Source: Glycomyces albidus
GTDB lineage: Bacteria; Actinomycetota; Actinomycetes; Mycobacteriales; Micromonosporaceae
DNA length: 64,000 bases
NCBI RefSeq assembly: GCF_009451885.1
Contig: NZ_WIAO01000030.1
Location: 1-64,000 of the forward strand
Direction: 5' to 3'
The position numbers and the translations under genes are program-made. How positions within the stretch are numbered: position 1 is the first letter of the stretch; each line of letters opens with the position of its first letter. Below are positions 25,591 through 29,286 of this stretch, in pieces. The notes beneath the pieces are model-generated. The model was not told the DNA's origin. It saw nothing but the letters and a program-made list of their open reading frames with translations, and made no database searches.

Positions 25591-26532
25591 CTATTGCAGC
25601 CCAAGGTGAAAGCGCATCGTGGTGCCGTCCGGCCCGGTGTGGGTCCGCAGCAGGTCCACGACATGGTTGACCAGCAGGAGGCCGCCGCCCTGCGAGTAGT
25701 CGTCGACCGGGCGGCGCCCGACGAGCGGGTCGGTGATGTGCCCGGCGTCGCTGACCTCGCAGACGAGCAGGTCGCCGTCGGTCCAGATCCGGAGCAGGGC
25801 CGAGCCGCCGCCGTAGCGGACGCTGTTGGTGACCAGCTCGGTCACGGCGATCTCGAGGTCGACGAGCCGGTTCGCGGAGAGCCCGGCGTTGCGGCCGTAG
25901 GAGGCGGTGAACCAGCGGGCGTTGTCGATCGAGTCGCGGTCCACGCCGCGTTCGACGGCGTGCTTCGGCGGGGGCGGGAGCGGGCGGTTGTAGGTCTCGA
26001 TGATCCGCTCGGGGTCGTAGTGGGCGCTGTCGCGGCGGCCCTTGCCGTCGATCAGGACCGGGTGCGTGGCGAGGGAGTCGGCGATCGCGCGGTCGTCGAG
26101 GGCGTCGACGTCGTAGGGGCACAGGATGGCGACGTCGCGGCCGGCGAAGGCGAGGTTGATGAGCGCCTCGTGCTGGGCGCACGCGGGGTATTCGATGTCG
26201 CTGCGGGTGCCCCAGATCGGCTCGCCGATGATGCTGACGCGCCGGTCGGGGTGCCGGTCGGCGAAGTCGCGGAGCACGCCGGGGATGATGCGCCCGGGGT
26301 TGGCGCCCTCCTTGGTCATGTCGAGCATGAGGACGCGTTCACCGGAGGCGCCCAGGGCGTCGCGGAGGAGTTCGAGGTTGGGTCCGGGCACCGAGACGGC
26401 TACCGGCTCGTCGGCCGCGAGCGCCGCCTCGATGAACGGCACGGTGCCGGCGAGGTATTCGGCGGGCCCGGAGTAGTACAGCGCAGGGTGGTAGAACGGT
26501 TCGTCCCCTGCATTTCCAGTCCCTGCTCCCAA
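25591..26532 (-). CDS. MEDS-domain anti-sigma regulatory protein (RsbA-like), paralogue 1
   Basis: Start is a TTG with GGAGGAG seven bases upstream, and a TATACT -10 lies at 26576-26571. The 313-residue product has a MEDS sensor domain (about 12-165; HPALYYSGPAEYLAGTVPF, NPGRIIPGVLRDF, IIGEPIWG, EYPACAQHEALINLAF). An RsbW-type HATPase domain follows (about 200-313; DLEIAVTELVTNSVRYGG with Glu and Asn of the N box, then VSDAGHITDP and GGGLLLVNHVVD). It likely binds and inhibits the divergent sigma factor, tuned by a ligand of the MEDS domain. The paralogue at 27914 shares the architecture. Confidence 0.82.
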   Translation of the reverse strand: MGAGTGNAGDEPFYHPALYYSGPAEYLAGTVPFIEAALAADEPVAVSVPGPNLELLRDALGASGERVLMLDMTKEGANPGRIIPGVLRDFADRHPDRRVSIIGEPIWGTRSDIEYPACAQHEALINLAFAGRDVAILCPYDVDALDDRAIADSLATHPVLIDGKGRRDSAHYDPERIIETYNRPLPPPPKHAVERGVDRDSIDNARWFTASYGRNAGLSANRLVDLEIAVTELVTNSVRYGGGSALLRIWTDGDLLVCEVSDAGHITDPLVGRRPVDDYSQGGGLLLVNHVVDLLRTHTGPDGTTMRFHLGLQ

Positions 26533-26687
26533 GCCTGGTCTCCTCCGAAGCGTCCGAGATTGGTCGCACAAGTATAAGAGGGCCCGCAAAGGCGTTTGCA
26601 GGTGTCCCGTGGCACATGGGCGACTCGGACTCAATAGTGCCACAGACTGATTACTCTAAATCACCGTCCTCTCGTCCGGAAAAGTAT

Positions 26688-26703
26688 TGTGATGTGCATC
26701 ACA
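26688..26703. promoter_or_regulatory. CRP/GlxR-type binding site
   Basis: TGTGATGTGCATCACA is a perfect 16-bp palindrome matching TGTGA-N6-TCACA. It lies in the 348-bp gap between the divergent anti-sigma and sigma genes, centred about 76 bp upstream of the predicted sigma gene TSS. No other gene is seen in the gap. Confidence 0.75.
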
Positions 26704-26736
26704 AACGGGTTTATTAAATAGGTTACCACCTGGTAG

Positions 26737-26765
26737 GTGACATTCGCGGTGACTGCTCTTATGAT
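26737..26765 (+). promoter_or_regulatory. Predicted promoter of the sigma factor gene
   Basis: GTGACA (26737-26742), 17-base spacer, TATGAT (26760-26765). The TSS would be near 26772, giving a leader of about 110 bases. No SigB-type GTTT/GGGTA promoter was convincing here. Confidence 0.55.
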
Positions 26766-26880
26766 GTTGGAAACGGCATTGGAGGACACCCCCGTCCTCA
26801 GCGCCACTGGAGCAAATAGACGGACAACCGCATGGCGTCTGCGCCCCGGTCCCACAGCGAAACGGGAGGACGACGATCTC

Positions 26881-27681
26881 ATGACCGACACGACACAAGA
26901 ACAGCGCAAGACCAAGTCCGACGACTACGGACATCTCGAACCGCTGTTCGAGGAGCTCGAGCGACTCGAACTGGACGACCCTAGGCGGTCGGAGGTCAGG
27001 GACCAGCTCGTCACGGGTTACCTGCCGCTCGCGGAGCACATCGCCCGGCGGTACTCCGGCAAGGGCATCGCCAAGGACGACCTCGTCCAGGTGGCCTCCG
27101 TCGGCCTGATCCACGCCGTCGACCGCTTCGACCCGAGCAAGGGCTCGGACTTCCTCTCCTTCGCCGTCCCCACCGTCATGGGCGAGGTACGGCGACACTT
27201 CCGCGACACCACCTGGCCGATGCGGGTCCCCCGCCGCCTTCAGGAGCTGCGCCTCTCCCTCAACAACGCTGGCGCGGACCTCGCGCAGGAACTCGGCCGG
27301 CCCCCGACGGAGGCCGAACTCGCCGACCACCTCGGCATCACCGAGCGCGAGGTCGTCGAAGGACTCGAGGCGCGGCAGGCGTACCGGCCGGTCTCACTCG
27401 ACGAGACCCCGTTCGACGACGACGGCCGGCTGCCGCTGGCCGAGACGATGGGCAGCGAGGACAGCGCGCTCGAACTGGTCGAGAACCACGAGTCGCTCGC
27501 CCCGCTCATCCAGGAGCTCCCCCAGCGCGAGCGCAAGATCCTGGCGCTGCGCTACTTCGGCGACATGACCCAGACGCAGATCGCCGAAGAGGTCGGCATC
27601 TCGCAGATGCACGTGTCCCGGCTGCTCAGCCGGACGCTGAACGAACTCAGGGAAGAACTCGCCGATTCCATGGACGGCTAG
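26881..27681 (+). CDS. RNA polymerase sigma factor of the SigB/SigF/SigG group
   Basis: The 266-residue protein has regions 2 (LVQVASVGLIHAVDRFDPSKG, FAVPTVMGEVRRHFRD), 3 (RRLQELRLSL, ELGRPPTEAELADHLG) and 4 (LPQRERKILALRYFGDMTQT then QIAEEVGISQMHVSRLL), typical of the stress/sporulation sigma group controlled by partner switching. It has a GGGAGG about 11 bases before the ATG. It is flanked by two candidate anti-sigma proteins with RsbW-like domains and a STAS protein. It should redirect RNA polymerase to stress or development promoters when released. Confidence 0.92.
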   Translation: MTDTTQEQRKTKSDDYGHLEPLFEELERLELDDPRRSEVRDQLVTGYLPLAEHIARRYSGKGIAKDDLVQVASVGLIHAVDRFDPSKGSDFLSFAVPTVMGEVRRHFRDTTWPMRVPRRLQELRLSLNNAGADLAQELGRPPTEAELADHLGITEREVVEGLEARQAYRPVSLDETPFDDDGRLPLAETMGSEDSALELVENHESLAPLIQELPQRERKILALRYFGDMTQTQIAEEVGISQMHVSRLLSRTLNELREELADSMDG

Positions 27682-27747
27682 CGGGCTGAGGGCGGTGCGG
27701 GCCGGAACCGTCATTCGGGCCTGTTCTGCTCGAACCGAGGATCCTCC

Positions 27748-27774
27748 GGGCCGGAAACGATGCGTTTCCGGCCC
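27748..27774. terminator. Hairpin terminator, copy 1
   Basis: A perfect 12-bp stem, GGGCCGGAAACG with CGTTTCCGGCCC around ATG. It lies 66 bp after the sigma gene stop and would serve the sigma transcript and the convergent MEDS gene. Confidence 0.8.
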
Positions 27775-27867
27775 GTTCGGTGTGCGCTGAACGCCAGGCG
27801 CCCGGGAGCCGCAGGTCGAACCGGGGCGTGGTCCCGCGGGGGCCGGTGTGGACGATGAACGGCTTCA

Positions 27868-27894
27868 GGGCCGGAAACGATGCGTTTCCGGCCC
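27868..27894. terminator. Hairpin terminator, copy 2
   Basis: Identical hairpin to that at 27748-27774, 19 bp beyond the stop of the MEDS paralogue 2 gene on the minus strand. Confidence 0.8.
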
Positions 27895-27913
27895 GTTCGG
27901 TGTGCGCTGAACG

Positions 27914-28876
27914 CTAGGCGCCCGGAAGGCGCAGGTAGAACCGGACCGTGGTCCCGCGGGGGCTGGTGTGGACCAGGAGCAGGTCGACGATCTGGTTCAC
28001 GAGCACGAGCCCGCGGCCGTGGAACTGGTTGTCGTCGGTGGGCATGCGGCCCGCGAGCGGGTCGGTGATGTGGCCGGAGTCGCTGACCTCGCAGACGAGC
28101 TGCGACGGTTCGGTCCAGATCCGGAAGGTGCCGACGCCGCCGCCGTGCCAGATGCTGTTGGTCAGCAGCTCGGTGATCACGATCTCCAGGTCGACGAGCT
28201 GCGTGCTCGACATGCCGAGGGCGCGGCCGTATGAGGTGACGAACCAGCGCGCGTTGTCGAGCGTGTAGCGGTCGGCGGTGCGCTCGATGGCATGCTTCGG
28301 CGCGGGCGCGAGCGGCCGGTTGTACTGGTCGAGGATGCGGTCGGGGTCGTACTGGTCGCTCGGGTGGCGGCCGGTGCGGTCGATGAGCACCGGGTGGGTG
28401 GCCCGCGCGTCGGCGATGGCCTGCCGGCTCAGCCCCTCGGTGTCGTAGGGGCACAGCTTGGTGACGGGTCGGCCGTTGAAGGCGAGGTTGAGCAGGGCCT
28501 CGTGCTGGACGCACGCCGGGTACTCGATCTCGCTGCGGCCGGGCCAGATGGGCTCGCCGATGATGCGGATGCGGTGGCTGCCCTTGTGCGCGTCGACGAA
28601 GGAGCGCAGGACGCCGGGGATGATGCGGCCCGGGTTCGCGCCGGCGTCGGTCATGTCGATGAGCATGACCCGCTCGGCGTCGCGGCCGAGCGCACTGCGC
28701 AGGGACTCGAGGTTGTGCTTGGGGACGGCGGCGGCGACGGGTTCGTCGGCGCTGAGCGCCGCCTCGATGAACGGGACGGTGCCCTCCAGGTACTCGTCGC
28801 GCCCGGAGTAGAAGAGCGCCGGGTGCTCGAACCCCTCTTGCACCTCTGCGTGCTGTCGGGCGGTCGCTGCTGTCAT
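27914..28876 (-). CDS. MEDS-domain anti-sigma regulatory protein (RsbA-like), paralogue 2
   Basis: The 320-residue protein has a MEDS domain (about 16-170; HPALFYSGRDEYLEGTVPF, NPGRIIPGVLRSF, EYPACVQHEALLNLAF) and an HATPase (about 205-320; DLEIVITELLTNSIWHGG, VSDSGHITDP, GRGLVLVNQIVD). It shares long blocks with paralogue 1 at 25591, so the pair arose by duplication. A GAGGGTGAG lies before the ATG, and the ATG overlaps the STAS gene stop by four bases, so the two are co-translated. It probably inhibits the convergent sigma factor or a relative, with the STAS protein as antagonist. Confidence 0.85.
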   Translation of the reverse strand: MTAATARQHAEVQEGFEHPALFYSGRDEYLEGTVPFIEAALSADEPVAAAVPKHNLESLRSALGRDAERVMLIDMTDAGANPGRIIPGVLRSFVDAHKGSHRIRIIGEPIWPGRSEIEYPACVQHEALLNLAFNGRPVTKLCPYDTEGLSRQAIADARATHPVLIDRTGRHPSDQYDPDRILDQYNRPLAPAPKHAIERTADRYTLDNARWFVTSYGRALGMSSTQLVDLEIVITELLTNSIWHGGGVGTFRIWTEPSQLVCEVSDSGHITDPLAGRMPTDDNQFHGRGLVLVNQIVDLLLVHTSPRGTTVRFYLRLPGA

Positions 28877-29286
28877 CGCTCACCCTCGATCGATATGGCG
28901 CCCCTGGAATCGGGCCACAGAACCCGCATGACGCGCTGGAGGCCGGGCGGGGCGTCGTGTACGACGATCCGCCGTCCTCGGCTCAGGTTGTCCGCGATGT
29001 TCACGAGCAAGGTGACTCCTCGAACGTCGATGAAACGGAGTTCGCTGAGATGGACATGGGTCTCGGCCGCCAGGCCGGTCGCCCGCCGCAACGCTTGTTC
29101 CCAATCGTCGTGGCCGTTCAAATCTATCTCACCCGACACGGCGATGCCGTCCCTGTGACATTCGCAGTCGTCGATCTGCAATGGCCAGACGACTTCGGTT
29201 TCGGCGTCCGGCGAAGTGGTAACCGGTGACGGGTTGGACGGGCAGGACTTGCCGACCGCGGGTTCTGCCGTCACGACACCTCCCAA
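28873..29286 (-). CDS. STAS-domain protein, putative anti-sigma factor antagonist without the usual Ser
   Basis: The 137-residue protein has a STAS fold at about 40-135 (IAVSGEIDLNGHDDWEQAL, VHLSELRFIDVRGVTLLV). In RsbV/SpoIIAA the motif is D-S-S/T-G with a phosphorylated Ser; here it reads Asp-Val-Arg-Gly, so the standard switch residue is missing. It is co-translated with MEDS paralogue 2. It could bind that protein constitutively or respond to ligand instead of phosphorylation. The N-terminal 40 residues are unstructured. Confidence 0.8.
   Translation of the reverse strand: MGGVVTAEPAVGKSCPSNPSPVTTSPDAETEVVWPLQIDDCECHRDGIAVSGEIDLNGHDDWEQALRRATGLAAETHVHLSELRFIDVRGVTLLVNIADNLSRGRRIVVHDAPPGLQRVMRVLWPDSRGAISIEGER

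Follow-up and report, generated by a model that had tools for sequence, protein, structure and literature searches.

A stress-type sigma factor gene flanked by two RsbA-type MEDS-HATPase genes in Glycomyces albidus suggests an anti-sigma system with two sensor arms

The window analysed here is the whole 64,000-nucleotide stretch of Glycomyces albidus DNA at positions 1 to 64,000 of contig NZ_WIAO01000030.1 (C24 in our numbering), and we deal with four neighbouring genes within it, which encode two MEDS-HATPase proteins (MEDS1 and MEDS2), a sigma factor and a STAS protein (Table 1). All four reading frames are open at the positions listed, with MEDS1 divergent from the sigma gene and MEDS2 convergent on it, as a first-pass annotation of the stretch had claimed. 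Plausible ribosome sites precede MEDS1, the sigma gene and, for its GTG start, the STAS gene. MEDS1 probably starts at the TTG at 26532, behind GGAGGAG, rather than with a longer frame, and the STAS protein may start at the GTG at 29274, behind GGAGG, rather than at the TTG at 29286. The start of MEDS2 lies inside the stop of the STAS gene (ATGA overlap), a layout typical of translational coupling and in agreement with the co-translation proposed earlier for this pair.

Table 1. Genes and intergenic features of the locus (positions in the window; aa, amino acids; nt, nucleotides)
Feature	Position	Strand	Remarks
MEDS1	25591..26532	-	RsbA-family MEDS-HATPase, 313 aa, TTG start, GGAGGAG ahead
Perfect CRP-type palindrome (TGTGAN6TCACA)	26688..26703		TGTGATGTGCATCACA; between divergent MEDS1 and sigma
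Housekeeping-type promoter	26737..26765	+	GTGACA-17-TATGAT, ahead of sigma gene
Sigma factor, SigB/SigF/SigG family	26881..27681	+	266 aa; TIGR02980 match
114-nt tandem duplication (91%) of MEDS2 3' end	27745..27978		With GGGCCGGAAAC..GTTTCCGGCCC hairpin; between convergent sigma and MEDS2
MEDS2	27914..28876	-	RsbA-family MEDS-HATPase, 320 aa, complete ATP boxes
STAS protein	28873..29286	-	137 aa from TTG 29286, or 133 aa from GTG 29274; D87-V88-R89-G90

Family searches confirmed the nature of the four products. Both flanking proteins contain a MEDS domain (107.2 and 110.2 bits; Pfam cut-off 29.8) followed in the same searches by HATPase_c_2 (51.9 and 56.6 bits; cut-off 27.4), and both belong to the NCBIfam RsbA anti-sigma subfamily (RsbA_anti_sig, NF041045; 380.7 bits for MEDS1 and 379.7 for MEDS2, cut-off 210), which upholds the earlier view of two paralogous candidate anti-sigma proteins. 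The sigma protein has sigma-70 regions 2, 3 and 4 (Pfam) and exceeds the NCBIfam cut-off of the SigBFG family TIGR02980 (294.5 bits, cut-off 234.35), so that its description as a stress-type sigma factor stands; it is below the cut-off of the NCBIfam SigF model PRK07122 (NF005514; 350.8 vs 372 bits). The STAS protein matches Pfam STAS_2 (50.9 bits, cut-off 29.2) and remains below the NCBIfam cut-off for ant_ant_sig, TIGR00377 (28.1 vs 53.45 bits).

The ratio of nonsynonymous to synonymous substitution rates (dN/dS), calculated pairwise between each window gene and its orthologues, was 0.11–0.18 for the sigma gene (5 orthologues), 0.23–0.37 for MEDS2, 0.31–0.40 for MEDS1 and 0.35–0.46 for STAS. 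All four genes are thus under purifying selection, with dN/dS <0.5 against the tested orthologues. Since the four-gene order also recurs in other Glycomyces genomes, it goes beyond what chance would produce.

MEDS1 and MEDS2 share 65% identity in an alignment of 305 columns, and we compared their kinase-type motifs with those of 115 aligned MEDS rows (101 after removal of 14 named duplicates). All 101 rows keep the catalytic Glu (115/115 with duplicates), and 98/101 keep the N-box Asn (112/115 with duplicates), the three rows that lack the Asn being diverged copies in the window's genome and in G. terrestris. In MEDS2 the N-box Glu and Asn and the Gly-rich boxes are complete, whereas the last box of MEDS1 reads GGGL. 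This departure is shared: the seven MEDS1 orthologues all keep the catalytic Glu and Asn, and all have replaced the Arg of the last ATP box (GGGL in five, GHGL in two), an Arg that is present in 92/101 MEDS rows and in all six MEDS2 proteins of the four-gene sets (hereafter quartets), which read GRGL. Moreover, the N-box His is a Tyr in 4/7 MEDS1 proteins and is kept in 6/6 quartet MEDS2 proteins. These differences suggest that the two proteins may have unequal duties. Two further MEDS-HATPase genes, with decayed ATP boxes and no N-box Asn, lie on contig C3 of the same genome (L006 5445-7318 and L005 7900-8883), one of them ~360 nt ahead of a sigma-like gene that has the same orientation and is shortened to 181 aa.

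The AlphaFold2 model of MEDS2 (mean predicted local distance difference test score, pLDDT, 90.4) has a C-terminal domain resembling SpoIIAB (Z 17.3, 126 residues, 2.4 Å); the match of this HATPase domain to RsbW reaches Z 16.1. The N-terminal domain resembles RecA, Elongator and KaiC chains (Z 11.6–13.0 over 154–163 residues, among the best 1000 Foldseek matches), a fold shared between models and structures that is no proof of a shared function. None of the 115 MEDS rows contains a Walker A motif, in keeping with the label 'iKaiC' that a table in PMC5847659 gives to MEDS; the reference list of the same source includes a 2005 paper whose title predicts that MEDS senses simple hydrocarbon derivatives. 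Residues invariant in the MEDS domain of 43 aligned proteins include H18, E108, W111, R114, C122, H125, C142 and H161. By sequence, no solved MEDS-HATPase structure was found: MEDS2 alone retrieved none, and a profile reached HATPase relatives only.

In the RsbV/SpoIIAA switch, the Ser that follows Asp in a D-S-x-G motif is phosphorylated. At this site the window's STAS protein reads D87-V88-R89-G90, and a phosphorylatable Ser or Thr is absent. In a profile alignment with 27 relatives, its D-V falls on the D-S of RsbV and on the D-A of SpoIIAA in 1tid/1til. The predicted model (mean pLDDT 86.2) matches the structures of SpoIIAA, RsbV and RsfB, and in it V88 begins the helix at the phosphorylation site. 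The same residue is Val in 6/6 quartet STAS proteins.

We then collected 54 STAS frames that closely precede a MEDS gene and share its strand, with the MEDS end no more than 1400 nt from the STAS end and after removal of 8 named duplicates among the Glycomyces loci. The acceptor residue in this set is Val in 44, Met in 4, Thr in 4, Cys in 1 and Ser in 1, and in 31 other fetched STAS frames, 3 of them from the window's own genome, it is Ser in 18, Thr in 7, Ala in 2 and Val, Gly, Asp or Cys in 1 each. It should be noted that the rows are related, many being from Streptomyces, and are hence no independent draws, and that one Val row (L124) lacks the Asp and is possibly no real gene. The Ser row is from Glycomyces (contig C1 of strain TRM65418), and the four Thr rows are from Nocardia and Amycolatopsis; Ser is also present in both STAS genes that are divergent from a sigma-MEDS pair (G106 and TRM65418 contig C33). 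These exceptions speak against a clean rule. Nevertheless, given the Val at the acceptor position, Ser or Thr in only 5/54 MEDS-linked frames and a kinase Glu kept in 101/101 rows, the local STAS protein is unlikely to act as the usual phospho-switch.

Elsewhere in the genome, a search limited to Pfam STAS_2 gives three other matches above the cut-off, all with Ser, and a fourth below it, and there are seven matches to SpoIIE-type phosphatases, every one on a contig other than C24. The compact partner-switching module of the first-pass annotation is therefore not supported as a self-contained unit. One of the remote loci (L161 5530-6401, G000:C38) encodes a STAS protein with an intact D-S-T-G, followed by a HATPase gene, and this protein may be a candidate antagonist acting from elsewhere in the genome. 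Its neighbours look by eye like helicase and proton-pyrophosphatase frames. We take this setting to resemble the Streptomyces bldG region in gene order.

Among named genomes, the best ten matches were nine Glycomyces contigs and one contig of an unclassified actinomycete metagenome-assembled genome, with G. terrestris on top (86%). Across 22 genomes of the genus, a MEDS match was found in 14 and a sigma match of the same family in all 22. The order MEDS1-sigma-MEDS2-STAS, in the same orientation on one contig, occurs in five of them (the window's genome, G. terrestris, G. sambucus, Glycomyces sp. TRM65418 and G. algeriensis), and in G. artemisiae the set is split over contig ends. In that assembly (G103; L139, L140) pieces of sigma genes stand at four contig ends (C5, C11, C14, C18) and look as if two near-identical copies had broken it. 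The genes that follow on the right in the window look like TetR, DUF418 and esterase types; the first two are found in G. terrestris, all three in G. sambucus and none in the TRM65418 and G. algeriensis stretches, so that there either the set is placed elsewhere or its flanks have changed.

Partial sets are also found. G. arizonensis and genome G085 have sigma, MEDS2 and STAS and no MEDS1, and a metagenome-derived contig carries MEDS2 and ends in a stub of the sigma gene. Conversely, G105 has the sigma gene (89% identical) with MEDS1 only, on a right flank that is the same as the window's, and a single MEDS match in its whole genome; at the place of MEDS2-STAS (L141 7319-8449) lies a frame that by eye resembles a secreted protein. 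Each arm, MEDS1 on one side and MEDS2-STAS on the other, can thus occur without the other. In G106 and on TRM65418 contig C33, sigma and MEDS are co-directional and STAS is divergent; G102 has a STAS-MEDS pair that runs divergently from a sigma match of lower score. That the three kinds of gene are linked in several arrangements argues for a working relation between them.

In a tree of 45 MEDS rows, the seven MEDS1 rows form one clade (support 95/77), and the six quartet MEDS2 rows form another (100/97), nested with the MEDS2-type genes of species that have no MEDS1. A recent tandem duplication giving rise to MEDS1 and MEDS2 is ruled out by these separate clades, despite the 65% identity. The relationships suggest that MEDS2-STAS would be the older neighbour of the sigma gene and MEDS1 an old paralogue recruited later, an addition that looks to have taken place within one Glycomyces lineage. 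Alternatively, MEDS1 may have been lost elsewhere, since the sigma factors of G. arizonensis and G085 are no closer to the window's than its paralogue on contig C12 is, and the sigma tree is poorly resolved.

Beyond the genus, we considered 70 loci, 61 of them with both 6-kb flanks, drawn from the best 80 of 335 matches. A STAS gene lies just upstream of MEDS in 41/70, and a second MEDS match >60 bits was seen in none of the 70 (one 21-bit fragment occurs in L091), which bears out the earlier statement that a two-sensor layout is uncommon. In 394 genomes of the class, a MEDS match at E ≤ 1e-80 was obtained in 33 (39 places), and two close MEDS genes were present in the window's genome only; with five candidates scored per genome, and with a search of the window's GTDB family confined to its best matches, weaker pairs are possible. 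MEDS-HATPase proteins as such are widespread among these actinomycetes: of 101 genomes drawn from that family, 85 gave a match at E ≤ 0.001.

The spacer between MEDS1 and the sigma gene has a G+C content of 55.5%, vs 72.6% for the window, and holds the CRP-type palindrome and the housekeeping-type promoter of Table 1. The palindrome is the sole match in the window at ≤1 mismatch (0.29 expected; 22/100 shuffles had at least one), and the whole genome has 7 perfect palindromes of this type, with 0 for a reversed-pattern control. The promoter scan, with 1 hit in 4 kb vs a shuffle mean of 0.3, is not convincing alone. A TGTGA half-site nevertheless stands exactly 49 nt before GTGACA-17-TAnnnT in 7/7 loci with MEDS1 next to sigma (the right half-site TCACA being perfect in 2/7). 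The pattern of this conserved promoter element arose in 10/2000 mononucleotide shuffles of the spacer. Half-site and promoter are both absent in the 2/2 tested loci without MEDS1. We infer that the sigma gene would be transcribed from this housekeeping-type promoter under the control of a CRP-family protein. A SigF-type promoter (GnnT-N13-18-GGGTA) before sigma or STAS was also considered and rejected, with two matches (G. arizonensis, minus strand, and G. algeriensis) and none in the window's genome. The 114-nt tandem duplication of Table 1 has left a short MEDS remnant between sigma and MEDS2, which is picked up by a 19-bit match at 27650-27913.

Taken together, our confidence stands just past the midpoint that the locus encodes an RsbA-type anti-sigma system in which two sensor arms act on one stress sigma factor and the phospho-switch is supplied in trans. 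Each MEDS-HATPase protein would be a cytoplasmic anti-sigma factor, whose SpoIIAB-like C-terminal domain would hold the sigma factor and whose N-terminal MEDS domain, RecA/KaiC-like and without a P-loop, would sense a small ligand and tune that hold. MEDS2 with its co-translated STAS protein would represent the older arm, and the divergent MEDS1 the added one. The local STAS protein would at most bind MEDS2 constantly and so set the threshold, because switching through phosphorylation of the usual position would not be open to it. A phosphorylatable STAS protein from elsewhere (e.g., the bldG-like one), together with the SpoIIE-type phosphatases, would give the phospho-switch in trans, an arrangement like that of RsbV (SCO7325) for RsbA in Streptomyces coelicolor, and the sigma gene itself would be expressed from the housekeeping-type promoter under the CRP-type site. 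This reading is supported by family membership, by the fold matches to SpoIIAB and RsbW and by the single arms found beside a sigma gene of this family in relatives. The other gene orders in G106, TRM65418 C33 and G102, the purifying selection, the acceptor residues of the STAS frames, the remote STAS and SpoIIE matches and the S. coelicolor precedent speak for it as well.

Several points weigh against it. For the putative binding of a SigB-type sigma factor by the MEDS proteins, the evidence at this locus is linkage and conservation; the departures of its ATP boxes mean that MEDS1 may be neither an active kinase nor an anti-sigma factor, and the STAS protein may be phosphorylated at another residue. 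Eight of the 22 Glycomyces genomes have a sigma factor of this family and no MEDS match, so that close sigma paralogues do without this control. Identity to the window's sigma factor is 75% in G. arizonensis and 73% in G085, compared with 75% for the C12 paralogue, and the sigma tree did not settle their orthology, for which reason our confidence was lowered slightly. That S. coelicolor RsbA is itself a MEDS protein is presumed from the NCBIfam name and the gene order. Moreover, PMC9739823, where RsbA is called an anti-sigma factor kinase, counts RsbB as well as RsbA among the proteins thought to control SigB.

Other explanations were weighed against the same data. MEDS1 might be a decoy that pairs with MEDS2, pulls it off the sigma factor and so boosts sigma activity, as the missing last-box Arg (7/7) and N-box His (4/7) of MEDS1, both kept in 6/6 quartet MEDS2 proteins, would fit. 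There is a precedent in Mycobacterium smegmatis (PMC7693655), where RsbW3 bound RsbW1 but not SigF and its overexpression increased SigF output; an RsbW3-RsbW1 heterodimer is assumed by the authors. However, RsbW3 (MSMEG_1787), with 194 aa and a 30-aa N-terminal extension in the same source, is too short for a MEDS domain and is ruled out as a MEDS-type protein, and G105, with its one MEDS match, keeps MEDS1 beside sigma in the absence of MEDS2-STAS, which a pure MEDS2 decoy does not explain; we regard the decoy as unlikely. Equally unlikely, to our mind, is a switch free of phosphorylation and of any outside STAS protein, in which a MEDS ligand alone decides whether MEDS2 takes sigma or STAS. 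The many invariant MEDS-domain residues and the 41/70 non-Glycomyces loci with a STAS gene upstream of MEDS, seldom with the phospho-site, are consistent with it, but the strict conservation of the kinase Glu would then be needless, and in the S. coelicolor operon the regulation of SigB is said to involve RsbA only (PMC8346170). Somewhat less probable still is a coincidence detector, with MEDS1 and MEDS2 joined as heterodimers on the sigma factor and sensing separate ligands through their MEDS domains, the unphosphorylatable STAS protein as an always-on competitor, and ligand rather than phosphorylation switching partners.

The model of the first-pass annotation could also hold unchanged if MEDS2 phosphorylated its co-translated STAS protein at a non-standard residue, a classical partner switch for which the ATGA overlap, the conserved catalytic Glu (101/101) and Asn (98/101) and the Ser of the divergent STAS genes in G106 and TRM65418 C33 can be cited. 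Set against this are the acceptor Val in 6/6 quartet STAS proteins and the Ser or Thr in 5/54 MEDS-linked frames, and we hold it to be improbable. Finally, slightly less probable still is that the two MEDS genes are chance neighbours that regulate other sigma paralogues or other targets. The genome does have three more sigma paralogues (75, 72 and 60% identity) whose surroundings, as far as fetched, hold no MEDS match, but the sigma-MEDS linkage is repeated in several arrangements, and the same order is found in five species and one split assembly.

In the literature searched, with subscription journals mostly outside it, no paper was found that links MEDS with anti-sigma factors, and none on the two-MEDS/sigma/STAS arrangement of Glycomyces. 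Two features appear to be new: a second sensor whose ATP box is altered, and a CRP-type half-site that in 7/7 loci keeps a constant distance to the housekeeping-type promoter ahead of sigma. Beyond the first-pass annotation, we add that STAS proteins linked to MEDS often have no phospho-site, that single arms occur, and that the spacer carries a footprint. Since MEDS-linked STAS proteins seldom have the phospho-site, a linked STAS protein is not to be taken for the switch by default, and the Glycomyces quartet with its one-arm relatives offers a natural comparison for the sharing of one sigma factor by two sensors.

The closest known system is rsbB-rsbA-sigB of S. coelicolor (SCO0598-SCO0600), whose RsbB reportedly lacks a phosphorylatable Ser (Lee et al. 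2004). As there, the STAS gene of Glycomyces lies upstream of an anti-sigma gene that is next to a SigB-family sigma gene, and three Streptomyces loci (L071, L085 and L090) have a Val-type STAS gene, a MEDS-HATPase gene and a sigma gene in one row on one strand, the sigma match of L085 being split over two frames. Unlike that operon, for which PMC8346170 names the unlinked SCO7325 as the antagonist, the Glycomyces locus includes a further MEDS-HATPase gene, divergent from sigma, as well as a sigma gene convergent with MEDS2 and a CRP-type site. With RsbV-RsbW-SigB of Bacillus subtilis and SpoIIAA-SpoIIAB-SigF it shares HATPase and STAS folds that match solved RsbW, SpoIIAB, RsbV and SpoIIAA, but its kinases are two and are fused to a MEDS sensor, its STAS protein lacks the acceptor Ser, and the window's contig has no SpoIIE match. 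The RsbW1/RsbW3-SigF system of M. smegmatis likewise has anti-sigma paralogues on one sigma factor with a proposed heterodimer (PMC7693655), whereas both of these paralogues are too short for MEDS, and binder and booster were separated by experiment. The locus of these Glycomyces soil bacteria thus appears to vary a known stress switch in a lineage-specific way.

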